From Actinomyces bowdenii (GTDB lineage: Bacteria > Actinomycetota > Actinomycetes > Actinomycetales > Actinomycetaceae), in contig NZ_JAGFOU010000015.1 in assembly GCF_017592395.1 (NCBI RefSeq), forward strand, positions 22,054 through 86,053: a stretch of 64,000 nucleotides of DNA, read 5' to 3'. Positions 44,610-62,153 of the stretch are shown piece by piece. How positions within the stretch are numbered: position 1 is the stretch's first letter; the number at the start of each line of letters is the position of its first letter. The notes under the pieces were generated by a model. That model was not told the origin of the DNA. It made no database searches and worked only from the letters and a program-made list of their open reading frames with translations. A program made the position numbers and the translations under genes.

Positions 44610-44707
44610 TCCGAGCCCGGGCGCGGCGTGCGCATCATACCGGCAACATGACGACGGCACCGCGCCCGCCCATCGGCCAGCGTTTCAGGTTCTCAGAAGA
44701 TCCGGAG

Positions 44708-45066
44708 GCCGGCAAAGCTGGTGGGTGAGGGTGGTTGAACTCGTTTGACAGGAGGTATGTCGCTGGGAAGGGGACGCGGTCCCCGCAGGGACGATGAGTG
44801 GTGTCTCGTCAACCCAGTCCCAGGGGAGCCCGCGCCGATGTTGTCTTCCGCCACGACCGCTCTATCACGCCAGCCCCTGACCCAGGCCCTGCAAGAGGTG
44901 ATCGATCCCAGGGACCGGCGCGATGTGCGCCACGACCTTCCCACGATCCTGTCCCTGACCGTCACCGGGGTGCCGGCCGGCAGGGCGCAGCCTGATGCGA
45001 TAAGGGAGCACGCCACCGACCTGAGCACCGACGAACTGGAGGCCCTGGGCCCACCCCGAGGGCAGG
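44708..45066 (+). mobile_element. ISAs1-family element remnant
   Basis: From 44838 the plus strand encodes the N-terminal part of an ISAs1-family transposase (LTQALQEVIDPRDRRDVRHD, then LPTILSLTVTGVPAGRAQPD and AIREHATDLSTDELEALG). It stops near 45066 where a second, reversed insertion sequence begins. The outer edge GGCAAAGCTGGTGGGTGAGG at 44712 recurs almost unchanged near 62508 on the other side of the island, and is probably the element's end. The catalytic part is lost. Confidence 0.75.
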
Positions 45067-45370
45067 TCCCCTTCCAGCTCCAGCAAGGCAGAAGCGTGCC
45101 GTCAATGATGTGCAGGCCCGCGCGGGGGACATCCTCGGCGGTGGCCAGCACCATCCCCAGAACCCTGGCGATGATCCGGTTGACCACAGCGATCGCTCGT
45201 GAGATCGTAGGCTGGGACACGCCCATGACATCGGCGATCGCCTCCTGAGAAGCATTGGTGCGCAGGTACATCAAAGTCGCCCGCACCGCCCCCATGGAGC
45301 CCAGGATCCTTGGCGCCAGGGCTATCTCATCATCACCCACCACCAACCCCACCAGACGACTCAACTGCAT
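45066..45370 (-). pseudogene. IS5-family-like transposase, N-terminal fragment
   Basis: About 101 residues of a DDE_Tnp_4-type transposase: a helix-turn-helix (ASQEAIADVMGVSQPTISRA) followed by the first catalytic block (AGLHIIDGTLLPCWSWKG, with the first Asp). Homology ends at about 45066, where the frame runs into the reverse strand of the ISAs1 remnant. The join marks a deletion or nested insertion. Not functional. Confidence 0.75.
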
Positions 45371-45681
45371 CCCTTTCCAACCCTATGATACCCTATGCCC
45401 ATGACCGCCCGTTCCTGAAAGGTCTCCGTTTACAATCTGATTCTCTCAGATCAACGAGCCGTCCCAGTTAACACGCCGAGCCAATCATGCCCACACACGC
45501 CCCAGAATAACCTTCAAGATCTCACAACGCTCCGCAGGCCTTAAGTTCCTCAGCGATCTGACGCTGCCGCTTGCGAGTTTCAACCCGCTCCTCATCCACA
45601 CTTACGCTCTCATCTCCTTCAGCTTCAGATCACACCCCTTACACAAACCATCTGACACCTTCCCTGGATAGGATCAATCGT
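45371..45681. other. AT-rich stretch before the methyltransferase gene
   Basis: No gene is seen. The base composition is clearly lower in GC than the flanking core genes. TAGGAT at 45669-45674 lies seven bases before the ATG at 45682 and may be a -10 box, or AGGA within it may serve as a weak ribosome-binding site. Confidence 0.45.
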
Positions 45682-46476
45682 ATGAACGACAGCCCGACTT
45701 TGATCAGCGAGCGCTCCGACCCGGCTATCCAGAGGATAGCAGACATCTCAAAGCCGCAGTTCAAGCCCGGCGCGGTCATGTTCCTCGAAGACGAAATCCC
45801 CATTCGCGAGGCCATCCTCGGCGGCGCAAGACTCGTGGAGGTCTACGCCGACGAAGCCCATGTACCCACTGCGCTCGTCGAACTGTGCAAGGACAGGAGG
45901 ATCCCCTTCCGAGCCATCGCCTCCTCCCTGGTCTCGCAAATCTTCAAGGCGCGCCGCCGCCCAGACGTAATGGCCGTCGCGCACACGCCGCAGCGCCACC
46001 AGCTGGGTGATATCAATCTTCGCGACGGTGACGTCGTCGTGCTCGACGGGGTCCGTATCGTCGGCAACATCGGTGCGATCGTGCGGTCAGCGTTCGCGCT
46101 CGGCGCGTCAGGCGTCGTGCTGTGCGGCTCTGAACTGGAGTCCGTGATGGACCGCCGCCTGGTGCGCGCTAGTCGCGGCTACGTCTTCTCGCTTCCGGTG
46201 GTGCTGGCTACCGAGAGCGAACTGATTTCCTGGGCAGAGCAGAACCACTGCCGCCTGATCGGAATGACTGCCGGCGGTCAGGTACGAATCGATGAGCTGA
46301 TGGGCCGCGACGAGCCCATGGGCCTCGTCTTCGGCAGCGAGTTGCGCGGCCTCTCACACGAGATGGCGCAAGCGATCAGCCTGACCGCGTCGATCCCCAT
46401 GATGCCTGGCGCTGAATCACTCAACGTGTCCGTCGCAGCTGGCATCGTCATGTTCCTCCGCGGACTCGAGCGGTAG
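45682..46476 (+). CDS. tsr: Thiostrepton-resistance-type 23S rRNA 2'-O-methyltransferase
   Basis: A 264-residue SpoU/TrmH-fold methyltransferase. It follows the Streptomyces thiostrepton-resistance enzyme (Tsr, NshR) along its whole length as I remember it: SDPAIQRIADISKP at the N-terminus, then GDVVVLDGVRIVGNIGAIVR, RRLVRASRGYVFSLPVVLA, LVFGSELRG and SIPMMPGAESLNVSVAAGI (the knot and SAM site). Those enzymes methylate the 2'-OH of A1067 in 23S rRNA and block thiopeptides that bind the L11 site. The ATG at 45682 gives the usual length. It converges with the thiopeptide operon and is the probable self-protection gene. Confidence 0.92.
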   Translation: MNDSPTLISERSDPAIQRIADISKPQFKPGAVMFLEDEIPIREAILGGARLVEVYADEAHVPTALVELCKDRRIPFRAIASSLVSQIFKARRRPDVMAVAHTPQRHQLGDINLRDGDVVVLDGVRIVGNIGAIVRSAFALGASGVVLCGSELESVMDRRLVRASRGYVFSLPVVLATESELISWAEQNHCRLIGMTAGGQVRIDELMGRDEPMGLVFGSELRGLSHEMAQAISLTASIPMMPGAESLNVSVAAGIVMFLRGLER

Positions 46477-46651
46477 CGCTCAGGCCGAGGGTGCGGATCT
46501 GCTCGGAAGCCGCCACCCACGAAACGCCTTGCTACGTTCGGCTCGAGTACTGCGGATTCCTTGGCCGAATCGAGTCCCCCGTGGGTGAAAACGAGCGCTG
46601 GGGCCGCACGCCACCCCATTTCAGGGAGTTGATCATCTTCTCTCTTTCAGG

Positions 46652-47566
46652 TCAGGATCGTGTGCCCGCAGGGGGTTCCGGCTGGGCCTCGAGTGCTCGG
46701 GCCAGCAGGAGCGCGACCACGATCTCTTGATCCGGCCGCAACCCCAGACGGTTGTTGTTGGTGTGGATGTAGTTAGACAGGACAGAACCGAACGCGGCCC
46801 CATCGAGCACGGTATCGAGCCGCGTCTGGTCAGTTCCAGCCGCCTGACCAAAAGCCCTCGTCGCGATGGCGAATGCCTCCCCCACACCGGGCGATAGTTC
46901 CGCCGAACGCGCCAGGAGCGTCATCACGGATTCTCCGATTGATTTCCAGACCGGCTTCAACCGCGCTTCATCGAACCATGGCGCGTATCCCATCCAAAAA
47001 TCAGCGTAGCGCCGCAAGAAGGGAACCAACTCACCGCCGTCCAGCCCCGTGCCAGCCAGCCCTTCCGCCGTGAGCCCCAATCCTGCGCCGAGCGGATCGA
47101 AGGGCCCGCCCTCCGCCGCAGCGAGTAGATCCAACACCGCGCAAGTCCCGCTGCAGAACAGGTCTTCGGCGATAGCGACGCCGCCAGCCCCACCATATTT
47201 GGCATATTCGGGAGCGTAGGGGTGGGGTTCCACCGTGCCCGGTGGGCGTGACGCGGCGACGGCCTCCTTCTCCAACCGAGCCAATTGCTCCTGAGCCTCA
47301 ACCTGGTGGGCGTACTCGCTCTTATCCTGCTGCGAGAGAGCGGGTATAAGGTCGGCCAGTTGCGACAAAACCTCGGCCGCCTCAACGGCCTCTAACCTGA
47401 AGCGGACTCGGACGTGAGGTCCGCCCTGCCAATAGCGCAGGAAAAAGAAGTCGTGGGCCTCGATCCGGGATCGCTGCTGTGCCCGGAGCGCCGTCAAAAA
47501 GTCATTGGCCCGCGAGTGAGGCAGGTAGGCGTGCCAGCAATGCCAGGACCGCTTCGGATCAGTCAC
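46652..47566 (-). CDS. Thiopeptide dehydratase elimination subunit (split LanB C-domain)
   Basis: A 304-residue protein matching the thiopeptide-type/SpaB-C domain: SWHCWHAYLPHSRANDFLTA, then FFFLRYWQGGPHVRVRFR, and late SNYIHTNNNRLGL. In split thiopeptide dehydratases this subunit (TbtC-like) removes glutamate from glutamylated Ser/Thr to give dehydroamino acids. It directly follows the glutamylation subunit, overlapping it by eight bases; the GTG has GGAGG upstream. It is the last gene of the operon, and its role as eliminase rather than pyridine synthase is inferred from this pairing. Confidence 0.85.
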   Translation of the reverse strand: MTDPKRSWHCWHAYLPHSRANDFLTALRAQQRSRIEAHDFFFLRYWQGGPHVRVRFRLEAVEAAEVLSQLADLIPALSQQDKSEYAHQVEAQEQLARLEKEAVAASRPPGTVEPHPYAPEYAKYGGAGGVAIAEDLFCSGTCAVLDLLAAAEGGPFDPLGAGLGLTAEGLAGTGLDGGELVPFLRRYADFWMGYAPWFDEARLKPVWKSIGESVMTLLARSAELSPGVGEAFAIATRAFGQAAGTDQTRLDTVLDGAAFGSVLSNYIHTNNNRLGLRPDQEIVVALLLARALEAQPEPPAGTRS

Positions 47567-50186
47567 GCGAGTTCACCTCCACAAAGAACTCCTCGGCAGT
47601 GGCTCCCAGCAGCGGGCTGTCGTAGTCGGCAATGTCGGGGAGACATTCACGGACAAACAGAACCGTGTCTGGCCGGGACATCGCCGTCCGCGCAAGGCTG
47701 CGCAACAGCATCGGGTTGCGGAAGTCCACAAACATCGGCTTATGCGCAGCGGCCTTGCGCATATGGGTGACCCGATCGAGTGACCTGGCCAGTAGCGGGT
47801 TGCGACCGCCGAGCAGGTCATATTCGGCAACCGTCTGGCACAGCACGAAGGCGTGCGACGGCCAGCCTTTGGCCTGACGCCACTCATCGAAAGCGAGGAT
47901 CGCCGCCAGGCTGCCCTTAGTGAGCTCCTCCAGGTGGGGACACTCGGAGGCTGGCAGGGTCCAGGACCTGCGGTCGATGACCACGCCGTCGACAGTCAGC
48001 CGCCGGGTCTCGACCGAGACAGTGCCGGGCGGCCCGCCCACCAGATCCGCAGCCACGCGCCACGGGTAGAGGATCGTGGGGCTGAGGGCCTCGATCATCT
48101 TATACAGTGGCGGTGACCATAGCGGGATGAGGAAGTTCATCGGCATGAGATCGACTGGCGCTCCGGTCTCCCGGTGAACGACGCAGACCGTCTGGTGTTC
48201 ATCGTCGGGAACTGCGACGAGGTCCTTGAGCAGCAGACGGTTGGCGGTCGCAGGAACCACGCCGCCCGGGTAGTCGATGACCGCTCCGGCGAGCTGGGGA
48301 TGAATGTTGAAGTTCAGGCCGAACACAGCGTTGACGTCGGTCTGATGCGGGAACTGTGCAGCAAGGTGATTACGCACCGCTGTCTCGAGGCTCCAACTGT
48401 TGTCTTCGGCGGCGCCCAGGTCACCGCAGAAGCGGCTGAAGAAGGCCCCAAACCCGGTGTTGACCCCGTTCACTATCAGTCCCGTTCCGGAGGGGGAAGA
48501 GGCGTCGAGGGTCATCTGGAGGCGGAACGTGATGGATTCCGGCCGGGCCGCGTGCGGGACCAAGCCCACCGCTTCCTTCAGGTCGGCCGCACTGAAGGTC
48601 CATCCGTCGTCGTCGACCTGCATAGCGTCGACAAGCGCCGACTTGAAGGAGCGTCGCTCCGCTAGGAACACTTCGGCTTCCTCGCAGGAGCGGCCAGCCA
48701 GCACATCGTCTTGCTCGGCAGTGGGCAGCGCAACGAACTTCTCGAACAGGTCGGTGAGGCTCATTGTGCCCCCGATCGAGCGCGAAAACGCGTAGAGACC
48801 GATTCGTTTCAACTGGCCGTAGTCCATGATGGCCGCCAGGTCACCGAGCGCATCCAAAGTCGGCAGATGGGATTCGACGACGACACGGTCCCACGAAGAG
48901 GGCGTCGTCGATGCCACCACGTCCTCGTAGACCGGGGCCTTGAGGCTCTCGGCCGGCGGCCCGTCAATCGCAAGCCGCTCGGTCAGCCTACCCACCTGAT
49001 CACGGATCTGGGCCAGCATCTCGGCACGACGCTCCAGCGAGGACTCGGCGTAGTGCGCTTCCATCTCGACCAAGCTCGTGAGCGGGGCGGCGACGAGGGC
49101 AGCCCGGTCGCTCGGGTCCTTCGCCACGCCTGCGACCAGCGCCTTCAAGTAGCAGGGGTCCTGCTCGGGCGTCGCCGCCCGCATGAATAGCAGTCCGGAT
49201 GCCACCAACGCGTTAAGGACGGTCGTCGCTTTCTTGCGGTCCTCGATCTTAGTCGCAAGGAGAGCGACGCACTCCGCCGCCGAGGCCGGTCCTGTCCGGA
49301 GAAGATCGACCAGGTCACGCAACACTCCGTCGTTCTTAAGCCGAACGACGGCATACCCACAGTAGCCCCTGGCGCCCAGCTCGCGGCTGTTGGCGACATA
49401 ACGTAACAGTTCGTCGGTCACTTCTAGTGTCGAGTTGAGGCTGACGTGGGCGATCTCCGACTCGAGATCGGCGAACGTGCTAAGGCCGAACAGCCAGTTC
49501 ACCAGCACGCGATTGGCCCGCACGACGCTTTGCTCGTCGCGGTCGCCAGCCGCGTCGCTTCGGACAGAATCGGCAGGAAAGGCGGAGACGGTAACGAAGC
49601 GACCAAACGGGCTGGGCTTGAGCGCTGCCCGGTAGAAGAAGTTCGTCATCGACGCCTCTACCGAGCGGGCCTTCGCGGGTTTCCAGGCGGCGCCACAGTC
49701 GACCTTCACATAGCGCTCGATAGAGGCGTAGAGATCCTCGCCCGACAACTGGACAGCACCGGCGATCGAGTCGTGATAGAAGAGGTCGGCCGCTGCGCGA
49801 CGCCACTGCGCAACCCAGTCGTCGTAGCGACTGGGAAGGCTTTCCTCGAGAACCGCAGCCTGCTCCGCCGCGTCGAGCCAGGGCGCGATGCTGGCGCGGA
49901 CCTCGTCGGGGACGTCGTCTCGCTTCAGCGCATGACGCACCCGCGTCAGCCGGCCGTTGTGGATGTCTCGGCGCAGCGCGACGAGCCACCCCCGCTGTTC
50001 TCCCGTTGCCTGGATCAGCGGAAGGAGAGCATCGACGGTCGCCTCCGCCACCTGGGCCGCGTGCGCACCGGCGGCCTGGGCACGATGAACGTCTGCCCAG
50101 AACGAGTCAGCCGACAGTGTCCTGAGCCGATCGACGCCCAACCGGCAGATGCGACCGGTAACGTAGGGACTGATGCTCAGATGCAT
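47559..50186 (-). CDS. Thiopeptide dehydratase glutamylation subunit (LanB N-domain)
   Basis: An 875-residue LanB-type protein lacking the elimination domain. Marks: SISPYVTGRICRLGVDRLRT at the start, FFYRAALKPSPFGRFVTVSAF near residue 180 (the family's tRPTPFGLF-like block), and later FNFNIHPQLAGAVIDYPGG and SWTLPASECPHLEEL. Such subunits transfer Glu from Glu-tRNA to Ser/Thr side chains of the core (TbtB-like). It begins 48 bases after the YcaO stop and overlaps its eliminase partner. Length fits the split type. Confidence 0.9.
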   Translation of the reverse strand: MHLSISPYVTGRICRLGVDRLRTLSADSFWADVHRAQAAGAHAAQVAEATVDALLPLIQATGEQRGWLVALRRDIHNGRLTRVRHALKRDDVPDEVRASIAPWLDAAEQAAVLEESLPSRYDDWVAQWRRAAADLFYHDSIAGAVQLSGEDLYASIERYVKVDCGAAWKPAKARSVEASMTNFFYRAALKPSPFGRFVTVSAFPADSVRSDAAGDRDEQSVVRANRVLVNWLFGLSTFADLESEIAHVSLNSTLEVTDELLRYVANSRELGARGYCGYAVVRLKNDGVLRDLVDLLRTGPASAAECVALLATKIEDRKKATTVLNALVASGLLFMRAATPEQDPCYLKALVAGVAKDPSDRAALVAAPLTSLVEMEAHYAESSLERRAEMLAQIRDQVGRLTERLAIDGPPAESLKAPVYEDVVASTTPSSWDRVVVESHLPTLDALGDLAAIMDYGQLKRIGLYAFSRSIGGTMSLTDLFEKFVALPTAEQDDVLAGRSCEEAEVFLAERRSFKSALVDAMQVDDDGWTFSAADLKEAVGLVPHAARPESITFRLQMTLDASSPSGTGLIVNGVNTGFGAFFSRFCGDLGAAEDNSWSLETAVRNHLAAQFPHQTDVNAVFGLNFNIHPQLAGAVIDYPGGVVPATANRLLLKDLVAVPDDEHQTVCVVHRETGAPVDLMPMNFLIPLWSPPLYKMIEALSPTILYPWRVAADLVGGPPGTVSVETRRLTVDGVVIDRRSWTLPASECPHLEELTKGSLAAILAFDEWRQAKGWPSHAFVLCQTVAEYDLLGGRNPLLARSLDRVTHMRKAAAHKPMFVDFRNPMLLRSLARTAMSRPDTVLFVRECLPDIADYDSPLLGATAEEFFVEVNSRD

Positions 50187-50234
50187 GGTGAATCTTCCTT
50201 GCTGTGGTGTGTGGTGCAGGGATGACGAGGCTGG

Positions 50235-52034
50235 TCATGGGAACGGGTGCGGCGGAGCGGAGGTGAACTCGCTCGGCGCAACCTGGGCCGGGAACGGGAG
50301 CGTCGCTTCGGTGAGCCGCGGCAAGCTGTGGACACGCCCCAGCTCGTAGCCGAACGTGATGGGAAGCATGCCCGGCACGATGACGCGGGCAGCGGCGAGT
50401 CCTTTCCAGGCGAGTTCGCCGGTGGTCACGTTCGCAGCGAAGGCCTCGAGACCAGCGCTCGCCAACTGTTCGGTGATCCCTGCAACGGCGTCGACGAGAC
50501 TGGGTTTCCAGATATCGCGTTCAGCGACCTGATCGTAGGGGACCGCGCCGCCGCTTCCATCGGTGAGGAAGGCGAACCAGGAGGCCGACGAGCGTCGGCT
50601 GCCGAGCATGCAGTGGTCCATCATGGTGTCGACGAGCGAGAGATCATCGACCATGCGATCGACACGCTCGGCTTCCTGCGGATAGGTGACCTTGACCGCG
50701 GAGAAGATCGCGGCAGCCTCGCGCACGCTCGACGACACAGCCGATGCCAGCGTCAGCCCGCTCCCGGCCGACAGCACCTGTTGAGGACCGTCCTCATCAA
50801 TCGAGCGGGCGAGGGCGATCACCGTCGGTACTCCCGTGTCCAACGTGCACCAGTAGACCTCGAATACGGCGCGCAGGAAGAGCTCAGCTCGGGCGATGAG
50901 CTGTTGCAACGACCGGGGCGCGCCGTGGCCCAGATCGATCCGAGGCAGCGCGAGCCGGCGGTACCAAGCGAGCAGGAACGAGTCCCGCTCGACCACCTCC
51001 AGGAGACCGTTCAGCACGGCGTCGCCGATCGAGGCTCCCAATGCGAAACCGCTCGAGGTATCGGCGAACAGCGCGCGGTCGCGAGAGGCCCGCCAAGCCC
51101 AATAGAGCGCCCGTTCCGGCAGGAACCGACGGCTGCCGTCGATGAGCGAGCGGACCGGCACCCACTGGATCGCCTCGTCCGGCTGAAGCATCTGGAAGCG
51201 ATCGCCACGACGCTCGTATACTTCCGGACGCAGGTAGCCCAGGGTTGCAGGGTCGATCGCGGCGGCGCCGAGGGAGGCCAGGGTCGCCGTGACCTGGCTC
51301 TGCGGATGACTGTGGTAGAGCCCCGCGTAACGTTCCAGTGCCTCCAAAACGGCGACGTCGTTGGCAGAAGCGACAGATTCGGTGCGCCCGACGCCGGGTT
51401 CCAGGCTCCCGTCGAACAGCGGCACTCCCACTTGGGCAGCCGTGACGGGACCGTCCAGTTCGAGCAGGGGGTGCTTGAACACTGTGTGAGCACCTACGAA
51501 CGCACGCTGCAGGCCCTGCGGCAATACCCCCGTGAGATGTGAGGAGCCGGGAGCCAGCGTCTCGTCGCACGCGATCTCCACGTCGTCTGTCGGCGCACCG
51601 TGGGGGCCGCAGGCCTGGCAGCGCGTCCGAACCGGCAAGGAACGCTGGACGAGTGTGGCGTCGGTTACGTCGACGACGGCAAGGTTCTCGGCGTCAGGCT
51701 CCGCGAGGAGCGCAATCGCCTCCAGCAGCACAGCCCAGCCGCCTGGGCTCACCGCCGCCTCGATCATAGCGGTAGCCTCATCGGCCGCCGTCGTCGCCGG
51801 TCCCACGTAGTTAGGTGCCTCCTGGGACAGAAGAAATCCACTCAGACAGGCAACGCAAGGACCGCCCTGGGGTGTGATTCGCAATACGTAGAGCTTCTGT
51901 CCGGCGCGGATCACAGCGAGGGTGTCACCGTCCGGCCACGTCGGTGAGATCTCGGCGATCCGCGCGGGATCGCCCACCACCAACCCGCAGCTGCCCACCG
52001 CAGCGCGCAGCGGCTCGATCGTCGTGGTCGTCAT
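50235..52034 (-). CDS. YcaO-domain azoline cyclodehydratase, copy A
   Basis: A 599-residue protein. The N-terminal 200 residues are E1-like in style (CVACLSGFLLSQEAPNYVGP and CQACG zinc-type cysteines). The C-terminal 400 are YcaO, with ATP-site blocks GRTESVASANDVAVLEALER, SSGFALGASIGDAVLNGLLEVVERDSFLL and SAGSGLTLASAVSSSVREA, and the Pro-rich tail PHPFP expected at the YcaO active site. It would phosphorylate backbone amides and close Cys or Ser/Thr side chains into azolines. ATG with AGGAGG four bases upstream; ATGA overlap with the preceding gene. Confidence 0.9.
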   Translation of the reverse strand: MTTTTIEPLRAAVGSCGLVVGDPARIAEISPTWPDGDTLAVIRAGQKLYVLRITPQGGPCVACLSGFLLSQEAPNYVGPATTAADEATAMIEAAVSPGGWAVLLEAIALLAEPDAENLAVVDVTDATLVQRSLPVRTRCQACGPHGAPTDDVEIACDETLAPGSSHLTGVLPQGLQRAFVGAHTVFKHPLLELDGPVTAAQVGVPLFDGSLEPGVGRTESVASANDVAVLEALERYAGLYHSHPQSQVTATLASLGAAAIDPATLGYLRPEVYERRGDRFQMLQPDEAIQWVPVRSLIDGSRRFLPERALYWAWRASRDRALFADTSSGFALGASIGDAVLNGLLEVVERDSFLLAWYRRLALPRIDLGHGAPRSLQQLIARAELFLRAVFEVYWCTLDTGVPTVIALARSIDEDGPQQVLSAGSGLTLASAVSSSVREAAAIFSAVKVTYPQEAERVDRMVDDLSLVDTMMDHCMLGSRRSSASWFAFLTDGSGGAVPYDQVAERDIWKPSLVDAVAGITEQLASAGLEAFAANVTTGELAWKGLAAARVIVPGMLPITFGYELGRVHSLPRLTEATLPFPAQVAPSEFTSAPPHPFP

Positions 52035-53719: not shown

Positions 53720-55839
53720 ATCGGTTCCTTTCCGAAGACACACGCGACCAGCGGCGCCGACGAAACACCGTCCAGGCCGAGGGACCAGCGCAGCGCGGGC
53801 GCGATCACGCCACCGAGGATGCCCGTCCCGATCCTTGCGGCGGCGCACCGCAGCTCGAAGCGATAGAGAAGCCCGCCAGCAACCTGGAGCGTCGCGAAGT
53901 AGCCGCTTTCGCCATGTTGCCGGAAGATCGCAGGCAGGTCGGCGACCAGGACGATTATGCCGCTCCCCGTCGCCGCGGCCGGCTGGACCGTCAGCAGGCG
54001 CGGGTCGGTCGGCTTCCGCAGCGGGCACGGTTCACCGTCGGGCAGCCAACGCGCCGCGACGACCCGCTCCCCCGATGGATCGAAGTGAAGCACCACAGCC
54101 CGCAGCAGTGGCGAGCCCGGACCCACGCTCGCGACGTCAGCGAAGCTCTCCACGAGCAGGGGCTCAACGAGATCCTGCGGCACTCGCTCGGGCGCAAAGG
54201 AGCCGACGGAGTGTCGTCCGGGCAACTGGTCGACTAGCCGCTGCGACGTCGGATCTGGCCGGTTGCGTCCTGAGGCGGCGTCAACTGCGAGGACGGCCGC
54301 GATCCGCTCACCGGAGCCGTCCAGGGCGAGTTTCTCCCGCAGCATCTGGTGAAGCGGTGGCGTCACTGATGCGTCGGAGAGGCGGACCCCGAGCGCCGAA
54401 CCGACGGTGGTCGCCGCCGCCCGCGCGCAGCCAACATCGAGGAAAGACAATTTCAGCGCACGATCGCCGTACTTCGGCTCCAGCACCCCGCTGTAGGACG
54501 TCAGGACCAGCAGGTCGGGGCCATCGTGCTCGACGTCGGAGAGTTTGGCCAGCCGGTGCTTTTCCGGCACGTAGGCGTAGACGCCCGACGGTCGTACTCC
54601 AGCCGCTCCCGCGATCACGTAGCCGCGAGGCGAACCAATGTTGGCCGCCGATGGAGCCCACCGTTTGGGCAGGCCGTATTCGTTGACGGCATCGTGGAGA
54701 CCGACGGTGGCACGCAGCACCGCAGCCAGCAGTGCGTCGGGCTGCTCAGCCACCCCGGGACCCAGGTCTGGCCCCGGCACAACGTCGGGAAGCGGGAAGG
54801 AGTCGCAGTGGTTCCAGCGGGGCATCTGCGACTGAAGGCGCAGGAACTCGGGTCGGTAGTGGTCATCGATCCTGGCGCTCGGCAAGAAGCGCGCGGGGGC
54901 GACGGCGACGCTCGCCTCGTAGCGCACCGAGAACGGGATCTGTTCCAACGGCTCGGACGCCGCGGAGCAGTGGGGGCAGCCCGGCTGTGACCACGTGCTC
55001 GTGTTGCGCGTTGCGAGCGAGTCCGCCGCGACCTGCACGCCCTGCTGCGGCCACACCGTGGTATCGCTCGCGCTGAGCAGGGCGATCGTCTGCCGCACGA
55101 TGATCCCGAGCGCGAGTTCCTGCAACCACAGCGTGACACTCGGCCCGCCCATGTCGGCCGCAGTCGCGGCTGCGCACACGGGGCACGGGCTTTCGCCCAT
55201 GTACAAAAGCGGGCTCAAGGCGACACCCCGATCGCCGATCGCGAGCAGCGCGACCGATCGGCCGTCCCACCACAGTTCCAGTGCGAGTGAGACGGTATCA
55301 TCGCTCCACAGAACCAAGGCCAACGCCTCCGGATCGGTGTCGTCGGCGACGACGCCCGCATCGGCCAACGCTGTCCGCAGCTCGACGGCGATTGGTCCGT
55401 CACCGTGCACGTTCACTCCGCGCGAGCCCAGGCGCTGCAGGGCCTCCTGCGTGCTGCCGACGGATTGAACCACTCCCCCGCTCCAGGACAACGACGCCCA
55501 CAGCGGCTCATCACTCGGCTGATCCACGGGGCACGGGCCGGGCAGCAGCTCGACGGCGCCAACGGCCCACAGGCGGTCGTAGAACTGAGCGACGACCGTC
55601 GAACGCAGGCCCGTCGCTTCGGCCACCTGCGTCGCGGTAGTGCTGCCGTCGGCCGCTTCGAGCAGCGCCCTGACGACAGGAGCCATCGCCTCCGTGCCAA
55701 GTGTGTGCTGGCCGCTCGAGGTGCGCACCTGCATGCGACCGTGCGCCAGCTCCCAAGTGACGCCGCTGCGGACCTGTGGCATCTGCACCTCAGGATCGCG
55801 CTGGCGCGACCTCAACACGTTCATGTCCTGGCCCATCAT
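53716..55839 (-). CDS. E1-like/SagB dehydrogenase fusion, copy A
   Basis: About 707 residues. The N-terminal half is E1-like, with CPVCAAA and PGCPHCSAAS as zinc-type CxxC pairs and a winged-helix start (VRALLEAADGSTTATQVAEA). The second half is a SagB-type nitroreductase (KRWAPSAANIGSPRGYVIAG, SGVYAYVPEKHRLAKLSD). A further nitroreductase-like block ends the protein (HGESGYFATLQVAGGLLYRF). It would deliver the leader and/or oxidise azolines to azoles with FMN. The start is the ATG at 55839 (ATGA overlap) or one codon later. Architecture parallels the fusion at 58452-60080. Confidence 0.75.
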   Translation of the reverse strand: MMGQDMNVLRSRQRDPEVQMPQVRSGVTWELAHGRMQVRTSSGQHTLGTEAMAPVVRALLEAADGSTTATQVAEATGLRSTVVAQFYDRLWAVGAVELLPGPCPVDQPSDEPLWASLSWSGGVVQSVGSTQEALQRLGSRGVNVHGDGPIAVELRTALADAGVVADDTDPEALALVLWSDDTVSLALELWWDGRSVALLAIGDRGVALSPLLYMGESPCPVCAAATAADMGGPSVTLWLQELALGIIVRQTIALLSASDTTVWPQQGVQVAADSLATRNTSTWSQPGCPHCSAASEPLEQIPFSVRYEASVAVAPARFLPSARIDDHYRPEFLRLQSQMPRWNHCDSFPLPDVVPGPDLGPGVAEQPDALLAAVLRATVGLHDAVNEYGLPKRWAPSAANIGSPRGYVIAGAAGVRPSGVYAYVPEKHRLAKLSDVEHDGPDLLVLTSYSGVLEPKYGDRALKLSFLDVGCARAAATTVGSALGVRLSDASVTPPLHQMLREKLALDGSGERIAAVLAVDAASGRNRPDPTSQRLVDQLPGRHSVGSFAPERVPQDLVEPLLVESFADVASVGPGSPLLRAVVLHFDPSGERVVAARWLPDGEPCPLRKPTDPRLLTVQPAAATGSGIIVLVADLPAIFRQHGESGYFATLQVAGGLLYRFELRCAAARIGTGILGGVIAPALRWSLGLDGVSSAPLVACVFGKEPM

Positions 55840-56426
55840 CGGCTCCCACACAGGTCACGAAGGTCTTCGAGCGCGCCCTCACGCGCGTCTCGATGCGTGG
55901 TCTCGCAGCGTTCACAGCCATCGACTGGGACCACCTGCACCGCGCACGGAGTCACCTCGTCGCGCCGCTTGCGCAGGACCATGGCGTCAGGTCCATCACC
56001 CGCGAGCCCCGCCAACGTGCGCAGCAGCAACGCCGACGCGACCGCGAGATCGGCGACGGTGAATCCAGCCGACGATCCGACGCCCACGGGGGCGGCGAAA
56101 CTCGGGTCTAGACTATGTTGCCGCTCACGACGGACCGTGCACTCGACGCACACCCGGCTCCCCGCCCCGACCGTCGGACCGCACAGAATGCCGTCGCGGC
56201 CCAGATGGACGGCCAGGAGCGGCTTTCCGTGAGCGAGGGACACATCCTCCCATTCGCGCCAGCGTCCGAGGTCGACGCCGGTGCCCGCCAGCACGATAGC
56301 ATCGACACCAGACACATCTTCTCGGTCTGACTTCACGGGCAGGCCGGAGCGACGAGCGATCCGGGCCAGCAAGGCGTCGGCGAACGGACTCTGGTCAGAT
56401 ACCACGAACAACCTGGAATCGGTCAT
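55836..56426 (-). CDS. Small E1-like cyclodehydratase component, copy A
   Basis: A 196-residue Rossmann-like protein resembling the stand-alone E1-like (cyclo_dehyd_2/ocin-ThiF) parts of azole peptide clusters: LFVVSDQSPFADALLARI, PLLAVHLGRDGILCGP, then the zinc pair CVEC and, near the end, CERC. The ATG at 56426 is preceded by AGGAAAGGAA. It pairs by order and motif with the small protein at 60080-60667 and overlaps the downstream fusion gene by four bases. Precise role not known. Confidence 0.65.
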   Translation of the reverse strand: MTDSRLFVVSDQSPFADALLARIARRSGLPVKSDREDVSGVDAIVLAGTGVDLGRWREWEDVSLAHGKPLLAVHLGRDGILCGPTVGAGSRVCVECTVRRERQHSLDPSFAAPVGVGSSAGFTVADLAVASALLLRTLAGLAGDGPDAMVLRKRRDEVTPCAVQVVPVDGCERCETTHRDAREGALEDLRDLCGSR

Positions 56427-56443
56427 AAACTGGCTTCCTTTCC

Positions 56444-57763
56444 TCACGCGAACGGCTGCGGCAACGGATTGAGTTCGCTCGGCTGGCGCGCTGCAAACCC
56501 CATCCGTGCGGGCACCTCATAGAGCCGGGGGCAGACCGTCGACCGCTCCCCCGGGACGAACGACACGGGGATCGCTTGAGGTACGACGACCTTGACGACT
56601 CGAAATCCGATTCCCCAGCCCTCGTCGGGCGTGACGTCCACGGCGACCGCATCCATACCCTTGCTCTTCAGCATGGCCAGTAGATGAGATAGTGGATCGA
56701 CGGACAACCCGGTCGGGATCGACGTCGGCGACTGGGTCGGCGCCTGGGAGCGCAGCAGGAAATCGAACTCACGGCGCATAGAGCGCCGTCCCAGCCACCG
56801 AGCCCCGCCGGTCACGCTGACATGGCCGAGTGGCGGTTCCTCGTGGAGCGGGCCAGCCGATCGGAGTGCGATTCGGAGTGACAGCAACTCACGCTCAACC
56901 TTGTGCAGGGCGCTTTCCCACGTGAGTGCGCTCGACGCGGCGACGATCTGAGCGAGCGACTCGTCGGTCTCGCTCAGCTGGACTGCATAGACGGTGGGGA
57001 TGCCTAGGTCGGTCGTCGCGTCGAAGCAGCGGGTGACCCGGCCGCCCGGGGTGATCGCAGGAGCAAATTCCGAATGGATCTCGGACAGGGGAAACTGGTG
57101 AAGCCACGTGAGAGCAATCGACTCCCGCTCCGACACCTCGAGGATCGCCCCGATCACCGCCTGACGCAGGTCGCTGTGCGCGGCGGTCCCGGTCGTCGCC
57201 GCGAACGTGAACCGCTCCGAGCCCGAGATGGGCTGCATATGCATGTAGACCGCCGCTGCAGGAACCAGTTGTTCACGCCCGTTGGTCAATGAGAAGCCGC
57301 GCACCCACCGGATCGGAAGGGTGGGGTCATACGGCCGCAGCCCCGAACCGGAACGAGCCATCTCCTCCGGCGACGACGTACTCCACCGCGACGGCGATAG
57401 CACGTCTTCCGACGGGAGTCCGCTCTCGGGCGCGACCACGAGCCGTTCTGAATTCCACGTGCACAGCGCGTAGCGCTCCAGCGCCTCAGTGACAGCCAGG
57501 AGCCGGGCGACGCGGACATCCTCATGGACACCGACACCGTTGATATTGCCCCGGTCGTCCTGGTGCTGCCATTCCCCATCGCCGGTCACCGCCTGCGACA
57601 CCGAGCCCATGTTCGCTACACACACGTGGTACGGGGTGCCACGGGTGTCTTCTCCCGTCAGCTCCACAACGTCGGACACCAGCCCCAGCTCGGACACCAG
57701 CCGCGAGGCCGGTGCCAAACTGGCGAGTTTGTCAGCGAAGCCTTCCATGACAGCAGTCACCAT
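56444..57763 (-). CDS. YcaO-domain azoline cyclodehydratase, copy B
   Basis: A 439-residue YcaO protein. ATP-site blocks: GVHEDVRVARLLAVTEALER, TGTAAHSDLRQAVIGAILEV followed by SERESIALTW, and AASSALTWESALHKVERELL. The tail NPLPQPFA matches the PxPxP-like end of azoline YcaOs. It lacks the E1-like N-terminus of copy A, so it probably works with the separate E1-like proteins upstream. The start is the ATG at 57763 or the GTG at 57760, both overlapping the dehydrogenase stop. Confidence 0.88.
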   Translation of the reverse strand: MVTAVMEGFADKLASLAPASRLVSELGLVSDVVELTGEDTRGTPYHVCVANMGSVSQAVTGDGEWQHQDDRGNINGVGVHEDVRVARLLAVTEALERYALCTWNSERLVVAPESGLPSEDVLSPSRWSTSSPEEMARSGSGLRPYDPTLPIRWVRGFSLTNGREQLVPAAAVYMHMQPISGSERFTFAATTGTAAHSDLRQAVIGAILEVSERESIALTWLHQFPLSEIHSEFAPAITPGGRVTRCFDATTDLGIPTVYAVQLSETDESLAQIVAASSALTWESALHKVERELLSLRIALRSAGPLHEEPPLGHVSVTGGARWLGRRSMRREFDFLLRSQAPTQSPTSIPTGLSVDPLSHLLAMLKSKGMDAVAVDVTPDEGWGIGFRVVKVVVPQAIPVSFVPGERSTVCPRLYEVPARMGFAARQPSELNPLPQPFA

Positions 57764-58455
57764 GACGGTGGGACCGGGCGAGCGAAAGTGGTCGCGAAGA
57801 GATGGTGCCGCGCGATGCAGTCGGCGTCGAAGATGCCTCGTGCGGAGGCGGTGTTGAAGCCCGCGAATACGGTCCCGCCCAGTCCGATGGCGACACAGTG
57901 CAAGTAGAAGTCGTAGACCAGTGCGCTGGCCCGCGTCATCAGCAGCCGGTAGCCGTGATCGCCCCAGGCATGCTGTGCCCGGACGAGGTCGCCGCACACG
58001 CTCAGGACGCCAGTGCCGGTTGCAAACTCACGCTGGATGCCCAGATACGTGTCGGGCGGGGCGTCGGGTAGGCCCCCGATTTTCCCGATCGAATCGGCGG
58101 TGACGGAATACAGGCCCGGTTCGACGTCCCGGCTCTTGAGCAGCACGAAGACGGATTCGGTGGGAGCAGAGGCGTCGTCTTTCCATATCTCTCGCTCGGC
58201 CTGCATCGCGGCGCGGCAGAAGTCGAGTAACGGCAGCACATCAAGGGGCTCTTGCTCGTAGACCAGTGACGAGCGGCGCTGGCCCAGACACTGTCCCAGC
58301 GACACCCCTTCGGCGAGCGGATCGTCGTTCCCGGTCGGCGCGAGCAGGGTCGGTGCCGCTACGCGCAACGGAGTGACGGTCGTCGTGATGGGCTGGTCGG
58401 TCGCCTTGCGGAGCGACGTGATCAGCTCATCCATGTAGGTGAAGTCGGACCTCAT
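57757..58455 (-). CDS. SagB-type FMN azoline dehydrogenase
   Basis: A 232-residue nitroreductase-fold enzyme: GQCLGQRRSSLVYEQEPLDV near residue 50, ESVFVLLKSRDVEPGLYSV, then DLVRAQHAWGDHGYRLLMTR and ALVYDFYLHCVAIGLGGTV. TbtE-like dehydrogenases of this kind oxidise thiazolines to thiazoles. The ATG at 58455 has AGAAGGGA upstream and overlaps the previous stop (ATGA). It is the only single-domain dehydrogenase in the cluster. Confidence 0.85.
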   Translation of the reverse strand: MRSDFTYMDELITSLRKATDQPITTTVTPLRVAAPTLLAPTGNDDPLAEGVSLGQCLGQRRSSLVYEQEPLDVLPLLDFCRAAMQAEREIWKDDASAPTESVFVLLKSRDVEPGLYSVTADSIGKIGGLPDAPPDTYLGIQREFATGTGVLSVCGDLVRAQHAWGDHGYRLLMTRASALVYDFYLHCVAIGLGGTVFAGFNTASARGIFDADCIARHHLFATTFARPVPPSW

Positions 58456-60080
58456 GCGCGTTCCCTTCTGAGTGCGAGTGCCGAGCAGACCATCTCTCGT
58501 GTACCAGGCAGTCCAACCTCGTTGCGAATGGCCTCTTCGGGCCAGTTCAGGAGCGGCGTCCAGCCCAGGCCGAGAGCGGACAGCACGTGCCCGGCCGTCA
58601 CCAGTGCGCAAGCCGCGTCCTGCAGGACGACGCGGAGGGCAAACGCACCGTACTTGCGCGCCACCTTGTCGACATCGCCGATCAGGTACAGCGCGACGGA
58701 GGGCTGCTCGCGTCCTGCTGGGCCAAGGTCACCGATGCGGATCAGCGCGTGGGTCAAATTGTCGTAAACGTACCAACCGTCATCGAGGTTCGCGACGTCA
58801 TGGACGCTCGCATAGGCGGTGACGGCACCGATGTTGCCGCCCATAGCTGTCCAGCGCTTGGTCTTGCCTTGACCGGTCAGCGGTTCCTGAAGTCCCACGG
58901 CTCCTTGAAGCAGGCAGGCGAGGGCATCGACGTCGATCGCACCATCCCCGATCGCCGGCCCGCGGCATGCCTCGGCCTGGAGATCACCGGGCGAGACCTC
59001 CGGGAGCGGGATCCGTTCCGCGTCGGGCCAGGACTTGAACTGCGCCTGCAGATCGATGTTCTTCTGCTGGTAGTGGGCCTGGTGCCCCTTGACGGCCAGA
59101 AATTCCCTCGGCGGAGCCGCGACCGCGGCCTCGTACTGTGCCGCGAGATAGCAGGATCCGTCGACCTCCTGATCGGCCACCGAGCACCAGCGGCATCCTG
59201 GGCGGGTGACGGCCGGCAGGAAACGCGTCTGAAAGGAGGCCAAATCGATCCGTGTACGATCGAGAGGAAGGGCAGAACTGCCGATTCCCGCGCCGATCGC
59301 CATCACCTCACGCGCAATCACGCCCGCCGCGACGCCAGCCTCAACGCCGCTGGCAGCGGGGTTGACGGCATCATGGTTGATGGCGCAGCGCAGGCAGGCA
59401 CTGAAGTTCCGGTCGATGAGCGGTCCGACACTTAGGACGGAACCCTGCAGCAGCACCGGAAGAAGGCGAGTAGAACTCGCCCACGCCGCATTGGCAGTCA
59501 TAAGTAACTGAGGGTCTTCAGGGTCGGCGCAGACGTGGACGACGAGATCGGAAGACTGGACGCGCAGTTGATCAGGCGGGCAGACATCGACGCCATCTGC
59601 CGCGAGGAGCCGGGCGACGTCGTCCGCGAGCGTCCCGCCCTGCAACGCGATCCGCACCGACTGCAACCGGTCCAACGACCTGGTCCAGTGGGCCTCGTTA
59701 GCCGTGGCGTCGGCCATGCGAGAGAGATAATTGGAGAGGGCGTCGGGGGCCGTCGACCCCGTGTCATGTTCGGCGTCCTCAATCACGCCAGACGTCCACA
59801 GCAGGGCGAGCGCACTGTAGGCCTGCTCCTGCATGAGCCCGAGCTCGGCCGCGATCTCCTCGTGGGAATGAGCGCCATCGAGCAGGTCGATCATCAGTGG
59901 AAGCTGGTTCTTGGCGAAATCACCGCGGAACTTCCGGGTGACCAGCGCTCCGTCCACGACGGCTCCCTCGCTGACAGGCCTCACCTGAATGCCGCGTCGA
60001 ACCAGGGGCCGCACTGGGACAATGATCTGCAGGTCGTTGCGGTTGACCGAGCCGAATGCGCTGGCAAGCATCTCTGTCAT
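58452..60080 (-). CDS. E1-like/SagB dehydrogenase fusion, copy B
   Basis: A 542-residue protein. The N-terminal region starts with a winged-helix leader-binding-like part (RPLVRRGIQVRPVSEGAVVD ... LDGAHSHEEIAAELGL). An E1-like part follows (SVGPLIDRNFSACLRCAINH, PGCRWCSVADQ). The C-terminal 190 residues are a SagB-like nitroreductase (TKRWTAMGGNIGAVTAYASV, DGWYVYDNLTHALIRIGDLG, ... AGHVLSALGLGWTPLLNWPE). GGAGGAG precedes the ATG; start and previous stop share a base (TGATG). It pairs with YcaO copy B. Whether the fused dehydrogenase is active cannot be told. Confidence 0.75.
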   Translation of the reverse strand: MTEMLASAFGSVNRNDLQIIVPVRPLVRRGIQVRPVSEGAVVDGALVTRKFRGDFAKNQLPLMIDLLDGAHSHEEIAAELGLMQEQAYSALALLWTSGVIEDAEHDTGSTAPDALSNYLSRMADATANEAHWTRSLDRLQSVRIALQGGTLADDVARLLAADGVDVCPPDQLRVQSSDLVVHVCADPEDPQLLMTANAAWASSTRLLPVLLQGSVLSVGPLIDRNFSACLRCAINHDAVNPAASGVEAGVAAGVIAREVMAIGAGIGSSALPLDRTRIDLASFQTRFLPAVTRPGCRWCSVADQEVDGSCYLAAQYEAAVAAPPREFLAVKGHQAHYQQKNIDLQAQFKSWPDAERIPLPEVSPGDLQAEACRGPAIGDGAIDVDALACLLQGAVGLQEPLTGQGKTKRWTAMGGNIGAVTAYASVHDVANLDDGWYVYDNLTHALIRIGDLGPAGREQPSVALYLIGDVDKVARKYGAFALRVVLQDAACALVTAGHVLSALGLGWTPLLNWPEEAIRNEVGLPGTREMVCSALALRRERA

Positions 60081-60667
60081 CAGTTCTCCTCCGGGTGGTC
60101 CGAGACGGACTGCTGTCCGCAGATCGGGCAGTTGTCTTCGCGCAGGAGAGCAACGGGACGGAAGACTCCAAACTGGAAGTCGTAATCAACGCACCGGCCA
60201 ACGAATGTACCGAGATCAGCAAACATCTGCCGAGCAAACCCAGCGGCCATGGCGACGTGCGCTTGGGCGTAGCCCTCCGGGATCGCGCCGGCATCCCATG
60301 CGGTGGCATCGGGCTCGCTTCGACGCATGGTCTTGGTGGTCAGGCATCCGTAGCACGCTCGCTCGTGAGTGTCCGTCGGTCCGATTCTGAGATGCGAGGC
60401 GAACAGTTCGATGTGGCCGAACGGTCTCGACGCTTCACGAAGCCATCGGCACAACTCCATCCGCTGTTGATGATAGGTCTGCGGAGCCACCAGCACGACG
60501 ACGCTCGCCGAAGCGATGGATTGCGGGAGCGTCGCGTCGGACGTTAGTTCGATAATACGTGCGGCAGGAAGATCGGTCATGGCGTTAGCCGTGGCCGCAC
60601 CAAAGTCCCCAGCGTAGATCAGCATCGCGTGAGGATCTGGATGTCCCACGAGATCTGTTGCATTCAT
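60080..60667 (-). CDS. Small E1-like cyclodehydratase component, copy B
   Basis: A 195-residue Rossmann-like protein with zinc-type cysteines: MLIYAGDFGAATANAMTDLP at the start, ELFASHLRIGPTDTHERACY with CYGC next, and CPICG near the C-terminus. It is the partner in kind of the protein at 55836-56426, and each starts a module of small E1-like, fusion, extra protein and YcaO. AGGGGA lies nine bases before the ATG. Confidence 0.65.
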   Translation of the reverse strand: MNATDLVGHPDPHAMLIYAGDFGAATANAMTDLPAARIIELTSDATLPQSIASASVVVLVAPQTYHQQRMELCRWLREASRPFGHIELFASHLRIGPTDTHERACYGCLTTKTMRRSEPDATAWDAGAIPEGYAQAHVAMAAGFARQMFADLGTFVGRCVDYDFQFGVFRPVALLREDNCPICGQQSVSDHPEEN

Positions 60668-60693
60668 CGATTCATTTCCCCTGTTTGATCATG

Positions 60694-61794
60694 TTAATGG
60701 CATGAGTCTCGACACTCACGCCAGAGCGGCAGCGACTCCGGTAGGCGGTCGAGGCAGTCGGCCTCTCGACTAGCGATCGCTATTTCTCGTACCCGGTCCA
60801 ATGCCTCCACGAGTGTCATCCCCGTGACGTCTTGGGTGGCACGCGAGACCGCATAGCACAGGAAGTACCGCTCTTGGATGGAGAGCCCGATATCAAAACT
60901 CGCCTGATAGGCCGCGCTCGACAGCAGCCGGAAGGCCTGGAAATCTGCGGTCTGGTGCAGGAAGTACCGCAGCGCGTCGCGATACTCGTCGGTGGAGGCA
61001 AAGCGCCGCGAAGGCAGGGCCGGCTCCGATCCAGGCGCGTCGAGGCCCTCAAATCCAGCGGTCGAAACCCTGATATCGCCGACGGCGAACTCCCGTCGAA
61101 CCATGGGGAGATGAGCCGTTTCCAGCGCGAACCAGCCCTGATGCGAGACCAACCCGGACAACGCGTCCATGACCAAGCCCCTGATAACGTCGCTGATTGG
61201 TTCGTAGACCGTCTTGAACGAAGCAAGCACCCGGTCTTGATCAGCAACTGCCGCCAGGAGACCTTGAAGGTGAGATTGCAAGCTGAAGAGCCGCAACTCG
61301 ACGGCGCGTTTCCGAGAGAGCAAAGAGCGCTCCAGAAGCTCGCTGCTCTCCGCTGCAGCCGACGCGTGGGCCACCAAGAGCCCAGCGTGTATGGCGTAGC
61401 GTTCCTCGTAACTGGCGCCAACTATGTCGCGGACAAGATTCAGGAGCACCGGTCGGGCGTCGCTGAATAGCCGATCGACACGCGTTCCAAACGCGGATCC
61501 GGTGAAGCCAGCGCTCTGAAGAATCCCCTGTGGTTGATGACTCACCGCGCCTGATTGGAGCCCTCTGGCTTCAAGTTCCTGAACCACCTGGGTCGTGATC
61601 GAGTCGCTCGGGGGCTCCAAGCAGCAGATCCAACTCACGTGGCCAGCCACGTCGGCACCCGATTGGCGGCTGACGAACCAGGCAGACTGGTCCCCCAGTG
61701 CGGCATCTGCGGATTCCCAGACCCCCAGGAGAGCAGCACGTTGCTGCGGAGCCGAATCCGGCAGCCGCACCTCCAGCGCCCACTTCATGAACAT
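60694..61794 (-). CDS. Candidate thiopeptide pyridine synthase (TclM/TbtD-like)
   Basis: A 366-residue protein, divergent from but similar in length to the pyridine synthases of thiopeptide clusters: MFMKWALEVRLPDS at the start, AWFVSRQSGADVAGHVSWIC, and many helices after residue 130. These enzymes join two dehydroalanines by a formal [4+2] cycloaddition, make the central pyridine and expel the leader. I chose the ATG at 61794 because AAGG lies five bases upstream; an ATG two codons later is possible. First gene after the precursor. Call rests on position, length, cluster content and weak sequence likeness. Confidence 0.7.
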   Translation of the reverse strand: MFMKWALEVRLPDSAPQQRAALLGVWESADAALGDQSAWFVSRQSGADVAGHVSWICCLEPPSDSITTQVVQELEARGLQSGAVSHQPQGILQSAGFTGSAFGTRVDRLFSDARPVLLNLVRDIVGASYEERYAIHAGLLVAHASAAAESSELLERSLLSRKRAVELRLFSLQSHLQGLLAAVADQDRVLASFKTVYEPISDVIRGLVMDALSGLVSHQGWFALETAHLPMVRREFAVGDIRVSTAGFEGLDAPGSEPALPSRRFASTDEYRDALRYFLHQTADFQAFRLLSSAAYQASFDIGLSIQERYFLCYAVSRATQDVTGMTLVEALDRVREIAIASREADCLDRLPESLPLWRECRDSCH

Positions 61795-61810
61795 CAACAC
61801 CTTCAGACAA

Positions 61811-61853
61811 AGATGGGGTCGTGCCCAGATCGATCTCAGGCACGACCCCATCT
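61811..61853 (-). terminator. Strong hairpin between precursor gene and biosynthetic genes
   Basis: Arms 61811-61825 and 61839-61853 (AGATGGGGTCGTGCC and its exact complement) form a 15-bp stem with a 13-base loop, nine bases after the precursor stop. A short T-rich run (CTTTGTC) follows on the minus strand. It is likely a partial terminator or 3' stabiliser that makes precursor mRNA more abundant than enzyme mRNA. Confidence 0.75.
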
Positions 61854-61862
61854 GATGTGCCA

Positions 61863-62012
61863 CTAGGAGCAGGTCGAGCTGCAGGAACTGCAGGCACAAC
61901 CGCTGGTCGTGGTGGAAGCGGCCATCACCTGGGAAGGCAGTTCGCCACCATCAACGGCATCCTCGATGAGATCAGAGATCTCGATCGCCGCGAAGTCGAT
62001 GACATTGTTCAT
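61863..62012 (-). CDS. Thiopeptide precursor peptide
   Basis: A 49-residue peptide, too short for most gene finders. The start ATG at 62012 has a near-perfect AGGAGGTG eight bases upstream. The leader (32 residues) is acidic, with IEISDLIEDAVDGG, and ends ELPSQVMAA. The core is STTTSGCACSSCSSTCS (17 residues: 7 Ser, 4 Thr, 4 Cys, 1 Gly, 1 Ala), so almost every residue can be cyclised or dehydrated. The leader style and the Ala-Ala/Ser junction resemble known thiopeptide precursors (NosM, TclE type) as I recall them. Unlike most, residue 2 of the core is Thr rather than Cys. It sits first in the operon, between the promoter and a strong hairpin. Confidence 0.92.
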   Translation of the reverse strand: MNNVIDFAAIEISDLIEDAVDGGELPSQVMAASTTTSGCACSSCSSTCS

Positions 62013-62124
62013 GTATTTCACCTCCTCGAAGAAACCGATACGTCAAGAAACAACCTTAACTGGCTACGGAATCCCCGCCCGGAGAAGGAGTCGCATCCCA
62101 CCTCCCCGCCAGTTCGGCAATTAG

Positions 62125-62153
62125 AGTGTAATCCTGGCGTAATTTGACGTCAA
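62125..62153 (-). promoter_or_regulatory. Promoter of the thiopeptide operon
   Basis: Minus-strand TTGACG and TACACT with exactly 17 bp between; transcription would start near 62118, giving a 5' untranslated region of about 105 bases. The -35 box lies inside TTGACGTCAA (62144-62153), a perfect 10-bp palindrome that could bind a dimeric regulator. Confidence 0.75.

Follow-up and report, generated by a model that had tools for sequence, protein, structure and literature searches.

What does the minus-strand operon at positions 46652-62012 of a 64,000-nucleotide (nt) stretch of the Actinomyces bowdenii genome make? Thiopeptides are potent against Gram-positive bacteria and, if the assignment is confirmed, the locus would mean that a thiopeptide system is encoded by an Actinomyces-like genome. 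The stretch, hereafter the window, runs to the end of its contig, leaving about 2 kb of sequence upstream of the precursor gene. The operon comprises twelve genes, with that of the precursor first and that of the C-terminal half of a split LanB dehydratase last, and a TsnR-type 23S rRNA methyltransferase gene on the opposite strand converges on it (Table 1). Together these genes probably convert the core peptide STTTSGCACSSCSSTCS into a pyridine-centred, ribosome-blocking thiopeptide, likely with a 35-membered ring. The cluster is real and belongs to a known class, in which it is an uncharacterised member set apart by its unusual core and doubled enzyme set; new are the second dehydrogenase set, the combination of Thr2 with Cys12 in the core and the fact that a distant genus has this core unchanged.

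Table 1. Features of the thiopeptide locus and its flanks (positions in the window; aa, amino acids)
Feature	Positions	Strand	Size (aa)	Evidence
Precursor peptide	61863..62012	-	49	NF033401 thiazolyl_BerA E 5.7e-14, 52.1 bits vs cut-off 37.5
Predicted core	61866-61916	-		directly after ...LPSQVMAA
Pyridine synthase homologue (formal [4+2] cycloaddition)	60694..61794	-	366	NF045556 E 1.8e-11, 43.5 vs 325 bits cut-off
Small E1-like leader-binding protein 1 (GenG1-like)	60080..60667	-	195	TIGR03882 E 5e-6, below cut-off; size and order as GenG1 (212 aa)
E1-like/SagB dehydrogenase 1 (GenE2-like)	58452..60080	-	542	TIGR03605 E 7.8e-13, below cut-off; TIGR03882 E 1.6e-4; GenE2 543 aa
Nitroreductase-like dehydrogenase component 1 (GenE1-like)	57757..58455	-	232	weak PF00881 E 0.012, TIGR03605 E 0.03
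YcaO2, discrete cyclodehydratase (GenG2-like)	56444..57763	-	439	PF02624 183 bits, TIGR03604 266.7 bits, both over cut-off
Small E1-like protein 2, second dehydrogenase set	55836..56426	-	196	TIGR03882 E 8.5e-4 on slightly longer frame
E1-like/SagB/nitroreductase fusion, second dehydrogenase set	53716..55839	-	707	PF00881 over cut-off; TIGR03605 below cut-off
E1-like (F-like) partner of YcaO1, putative function	52031..53719	-	562	36% to a G900 protein matching TIGR03882 at E 1.2e-4; 31% in S. fuscum
YcaO1, fused-type cyclodehydratase	50235..52034	-	599	PF02624 207 bits, TIGR03604 246.1 bits, over cut-off
LanB N-terminal (glutamylation half of split dehydratase)	47559..50186	-	875	PF04738 79.3 bits vs cut-off 28
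LanB C-terminal (elimination half)	46652..47566	-	304	PF14028 120.4 bits, TIGR03891 67.9 bits, over cut-off
TsnR-type 23S rRNA methyltransferase	45682..46476	+		TSNR_N (PF04705) and SpoU_methylase (PF00588) over cut-off
Promoter-like match upstream of precursor	62125..62153	-		TTGACG-17-TACACT, 9/12 consensus bases
Hairpin just 3' of precursor stop	61811..61853	-		fold z -3.98; 0/200 shuffles fold equally well
Transposase-like remnant, left flank	44693..45370	-		HTH_Tnp_4 E 1e-5, just below cut-off
IS3-type transposase fragment, right flank near contig end	62918..63229	+		PF01527 over cut-off; NF033516 E 5.9e-12, below cut-off

An earlier sequence-only reading of this DNA had pointed to a Cys/Ser/Thr-rich precursor, and the peptide indeed exceeds the cut-off of NF033401, a family of thiazolyl-peptide precursors made of leader and core. 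The adjoining gene had been called a pyridine synthase candidate. Used as a single query, this protein recovered itself and an 89% relative but nothing else from 7995 scored candidates; it matched no PDB chain at E <= 1 (with a slightly longer frame) and no plasmid record at E <= 0.01. Because these searches found so little, a profile was needed, and it was built from the protein aligned with six relatives (A5, n = 7). The profile matches TbtD (7e-11), TsrE (1e-9) and PbtD (6.4e-7), and all seven members match NF045556, which bears out the candidate as a predicted [4+2] pyridine synthase homologue.

The remaining enzymes are those expected of a pyridine-type thiopeptide cluster, the class proposed in the sequence-only reading and supported here by the gene set. 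Two YcaO cyclodehydratases and both halves of the split LanB (Lant_dehydr_N, Lant_dehydr_C and TIGR03891) surpass their family cut-offs, and the families named beforehand as a check (TIGR03891, Lant_dehydr_N, YcaO and nitroreductase) all do so, Nitroreductase on the 707-aa fusion. The E1-like proteins and SagB dehydrogenases were recovered as matches, but TIGR03882 and TIGR03605 stay below cut-off; TIGR03605 reaches E ~1e-12 in two proteins, and PF00881 passes in one. YcaO2 ends in a PxPxF-type tail. Pfam and NCBIfam profile searches matched no family to the F-like partner, and LanB-N had no PDB hit at E <= 0.1. Discrete-YcaO-type clusters are described as occasionally holding an additional fused cyclodehydratase (PMC4603692), a case to which the pair of YcaO2 and the fused YcaO1 is likened.

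From the gene content and family matches, which were observed directly, we infer the following reactions. The E1-like partners would bind the leader, and YcaO2 and YcaO1 would cyclise Thr2, Ser5, Cys7, Cys9 and Cys12 (perhaps also Cys16), YcaO1 presumably acting on Cys7. SagB-type dehydrogenases would oxidise the azolines to azoles, the second set perhaps serving YcaO1. The split LanB would dehydrate other Ser and Thr residues using glutamyl-tRNA, and the pyridine synthase would join the dehydroalanines at positions 1 and 13 (Dha1 and Dha13) and expel the leader.

The ring size likely follows from the enzyme family. Geninthiocin, berninamycin, sulfomycin, thioplabin and TP-1161 are listed as 35-membered (PMC6306032), and the litoralimycins carry an oxazolyl-thiazolyl-pyridine in a 35-membered ring of 13 residues (PMC7345755). 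The genes of this subgroup, namely a discrete YcaO, a small E1, an E1-SagB and a nitroreductase-like component, are all present here. They have the sizes seen in the geninthiocin B cluster, in which the E1, E2, G1, G2, D, precursor, B and C genes are similar to those of the window (aa, in this order, window/geninthiocin B: 232/234, 542/543, 195/212, 439/448, 366/357, 49/46, 875/885 and 304/320; PMC6306032). Since the gene set is that of the berninamycin, sulfomycin and TP-1161 group with its 35-membered products, a closure between Ser1 and Ser13 is likely. Both residues are Ser, but Ser10, Ser11 and Ser14 are present as well. For this ring, core residues 2, 5, 7, 9 and 12 can form azoles, a weak fit because Ser, Thr and Cys make up 15 of the 17 core residues. 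When Ser1-Ser13 closure and five azoles are assumed, mass arithmetic reproduces litoralimycins A and B, the formula of A being derived from that of B. The arithmetic also reproduces micrococcin P1.

Several observations weigh against this reading. The matches to NF045556, TIGR03605, TIGR03882 and NF000477 are all below their cut-offs, that of NF045556 being an equivalog cut-off. The SxRSH stretch of the other A5 clusters and TbtD reads SLQSH, with Gln for Arg at residue 173, in the window protein and the relative P0002, and an AlphaFold2 model made on two sequences has a pLDDT of 38. Mass arithmetic did not reproduce sulfomycin I. Reviews describe the target of 35-membered thiopeptides as unknown in general. 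The cluster had been called complete-looking, which holds for the twelve core genes, all with intact frames in open reading frame (ORF) analysis, but none of them was recognisable as a tailoring enzyme, leader protease or exporter, and the contig ends near the precursor gene. No product or transcripts of the window cluster are known. Finally, by ring arithmetic the core also fits a 26-membered ring closed between Ser1 and Ser10.

In that last case the same kind of cluster would make a ring of the thiocillin/thiostrepton type with azoles at positions 2, 5, 7, 9, 11 and 12, all of which are azole-capable. The 26-membered thiopeptides are described as binding the L11/23S rRNA site, which is the one that TsnR-type enzymes protect. 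The enzyme set, however, is that of the group whose described products are 35-membered, and Ser13 is kept in all ten core entries compared (yet Ser10 and Ser14 are kept too), so a 26-membered product is considered unlikely.

With the 35-membered ring as the preferred structure, the core itself is unusual. Closure between Ser1 and Ser13 puts azoles 2 and 12 beside the pyridine. Thr2 occurs with Cys12 in three of the ten core entries (the window cluster, Sphaerisporangium fuscum and P0016) and Cys2 with Ser12 or Thr12 in the other seven, and the sulfur-bearing azole is therefore predicted to be swapped between positions 2 and 12 relative to the Cys2 cores. The window core, which starts STTTSGCACSS, does not fit the ThioFinder motif SCTT[CS][GI]CT[CS]S[CS], derived from 38 known thiopeptides and used for mining, not as a definition of the class (PMC3454323). 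Four relatives of the precursor were found. One of them, P0017, has 50 aa, nearly the same leader and a different core, SCTTSGCACSSSSSTCSV; it is common in public data (108 contigs) but gave no match in plasmid records or viral contigs. The NF033401 searches covered 213 genomes of the family, 394 of the class and 200 and 343 genomes of the groups of two relatives; in addition, the S. fuscum precursor (P0019), which is present at 100% in G1453, was searched in 186 genomes, which partly overlap the other sets.

The closest counterpart is the S. fuscum cluster, which has the same gene order, a convergent methyltransferase, two YcaOs, two dehydrogenase sets (including the second small E1-like copy) and a core identical in 17 of 17 residues. 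The two differ in an extra C-terminal Ala of the S. fuscum precursor, in the second E1-SagB and nitroreductase, which are separate genes there and fused in the window, and in the sequences of the seven enzymes compared, which are 26-48% identical. No product of the S. fuscum cluster was found in a single literature search. The sequence-only reading knew of no matching core, a view overturned both by this cluster and by a printed precursor described below. As a weak side observation, the core codons (61866-61916) are the same in 13 of 17 positions, against a mean of 8.7 in a draw from the seven enzyme genes (P 0.027), which did not cover the genes for the methyltransferase, the F-like partner, the nitroreductase or the second dehydrogenase set; the excess is given no meaning because the leader is similar too (13/19).

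Nine clusters were compared: those of the window and S. fuscum (G1453:C42), G900, G1091, G1076, and G786, G1368, G1158 and G1145, the last four being of one genus, which we take to be Streptomyces, with cores that are presumably berninamycin-like. The seven clusters with NF033401 precursors other than those of the window and S. fuscum share module 1, the pyridine synthase and the split LanB at 25-46% identity. A homologue of the GenE1-like component is found in all eight other clusters; the small E1 homologue of G786 appears only at E 2.75e-4, so it is missing from a stricter table. The four Streptomyces clusters have one YcaO, one dehydrogenase set and Val7, and neither YcaO1 nor the F-like partner in the stretch fetched. 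G900, G1091 and G1076 have two YcaOs, one dehydrogenase set and Cys7. Two YcaOs with two dehydrogenase sets, again with Cys7, occur only in the window cluster and S. fuscum. Thus YcaO1 is present with Cys7 in 5/5 and absent, within the fetched stretches, with Val7 in 4/4. An F-like partner was found by similarity in three of the four other two-YcaO clusters but not in G1091. That genome has both printed cores of the sulfomycin/litoralimycin producer Streptomonospora litoralis (PMC8448680, PMC7345755), and its cluster has homologues of module 1, YcaO1, the pyridine synthase, the split LanB and the methyltransferase; it differs from that of the window in its single dehydrogenase set and in having Cys2 with Ser12 or Thr12 instead of Thr2 with Cys12. 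In G900 (L102:9995-12637), a single uninterrupted open frame, possibly a fusion, spans both the pyridine synthase and YcaO2.

The association of YcaO1 with Cys7 is confounded with lineage in this sample. Going by the title of a paper by Du et al., sulfomycin is reportedly made with two YcaOs, and a trimer is said to be named there. We infer this trimer to be the set of small E1, E1-SagB and nitroreductase. The sulfomycin of Streptomyces viridochromogenes has a Cys7 core, SCTTTGCTTSSSSSSSS (PMC8448680). With Cys7 and two YcaOs, it argues that the link reflects more than lineage alone. If confirmed, the series of one-YcaO, two-YcaO and two-YcaO/two-dehydrogenase clusters allows a direct test of the division of labour among azole enzymes. 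A tentative joint proposal, to which we give somewhat less than an even chance, is that each of the two YcaOs has its own dehydrogenase complex, a third tier of 35-membered assembly; that the pyridine has a Thr2 methyloxazole and a Cys12 thiazole at its sides, so that the thiazole-2/oxazole-12 arrangement of the sulfomycin type is inverted; and that the 17-residue core is under tight selection, unchanged between Actinomyces and Sphaerisporangium while the enzymes are less than 50% identical.

The methyltransferase would protect the producer's own 23S rRNA and is the predicted self-resistance determinant. It matches PDB entries 3nk6 (E 1.8e-66) and 3gyq (E 4.2e-65), and a TsnR-type gene is present in 6 of the 9 cluster stretches fetched. 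It had been described as of the thiostrepton-resistance type. Since TSNR_N and SpoU_methylase are over cut-off but the NshR/TsnR equivalog NF000477 is below (292.4 vs 425 bits), it is regarded as a relative of NshR/TsnR and as an unproven equivalog. Position 45682 is an ATG within a longer frame, 45571-46476. Like thiostrepton, berninamycin is reported to have the 50S subunit as its site of action.

The operon has the twelve genes and the minus-strand arrangement first ascribed to it, and most of its genes do overlap by 1-8 bases (7 of 11 junctions, the other 4 having gaps of 17-68 bases), although these counts depend on start codons, some of which are choices. The promoter-like match is weak because the scan found 2 sites of the TTGACG-17-TACACT type with 2.1 expected by chance. 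No T-run typical of a terminator follows the hairpin, which may separate precursor from enzyme expression and raise the precursor over the enzymes.

The surroundings suggest horizontal acquisition. The cluster lies between transposase remnants, and the G + C content, taken over 2-kb segments, drops from 72-78% in those that start at 30-42 kb to 60-69% in those that start at 43-62 kb. Among the 213 family genomes, NF033401 is passed only by the window's own precursor, two others matching weakly below cut-off, and just one genome gave a full match to the pyridine synthase; a second match was rejected as not credible (58 residues, E 7.9e-4, two stops). These features, with the contig end and the lack of a recognised exporter, would also suit a silent or decaying island that makes nothing in this genome. 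That is very unlikely in view of the twelve intact frames, the seven compared genes that align with S. fuscum over most of their length, and the public sequences of close relatives, namely 57 members for the 89% pyridine synthase relative and 58 for a 93% relative of YcaO1 (P0003).

The identical 49-aa precursor has been printed for A. bowdenii APC 4154 from a dog mouth, as a thiopeptide detected with BAGEL4 and antiSMASH 7 (PMC11381294). In the text available of that paper, the authors state that they did not examine thiopeptide/TOMM operons in detail, and what is given for the thiopeptide is limited to the precursor and the names of the tools. Literature searches with core fragments and with A. 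bowdenii plus thiopeptide gave nothing beyond it. APC 4154 inhibited 8/8 Gram-positive and 0/7 Gram-negative indicators and also carries defensin-like genes (PMC11381294); the spectrum fits a thiopeptide, but could come from the defensin-like peptides. Of the two such peptides printed, one had no match in the window's genome and the other only one of 32% (E 0.13) with an internal stop; because neither match is convincing, identity of the strains is not claimed.

Farther away, a search of genome contigs with a YcaO1 alignment gave as the best 80 of 502 relatives proteins of 28-36% identity, mostly from Bacillota, and tblastn (E 1e-4) matched the precursor or pyridine synthase in none of these 80. 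One of them, the only one scanned with the pyridine synthase profile, is Nesterenkonia alkaliphila (L075:4371-11179), in which a weak pyridine synthase relative (E 2e-9, A5 profile) is found a short distance from a LanB-C match and a fused YcaO, possibly marking a further thiopeptide locus. It was left out of the nine clusters together with the NF045556 hits G319, G340, G383 and G564; in these five, tblastn shows no module-1 dehydrogenase genes and no precursor (G319 and G340 were read over about 3.9 kb only).

Goadsporin clusters, too, contain YcaO, SagB-type and split LanB genes (PMC4603692), and the same genome has one such cluster, devoid of a pyridine synthase, at another locus, so the operon could be thought to make a linear azole- and dehydroamino-acid-containing peptide without a macrocycle. 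This is scarcely credible here, as a pyridine synthase homologue adjoins the precursor gene and the precursor belongs to the thiazolyl-peptide family; a thiopeptide is preferred. The second cluster (contig C8, L092:17423 to L093:7607), in which the profile found no pyridine synthase, encodes a YcaO 41% identical to YcaO2, a small E1, an E1-SagB, a nitroreductase-like protein, an M50-like metalloprotease, a split LanB and a Cys-rich precursor (L093:2477-2677) over the NF033482 cut-off. Of the 30 other genomes of the genus (among 49 genomes searched), 16 have a YcaO that is 62-90% identical to the one in this second cluster.

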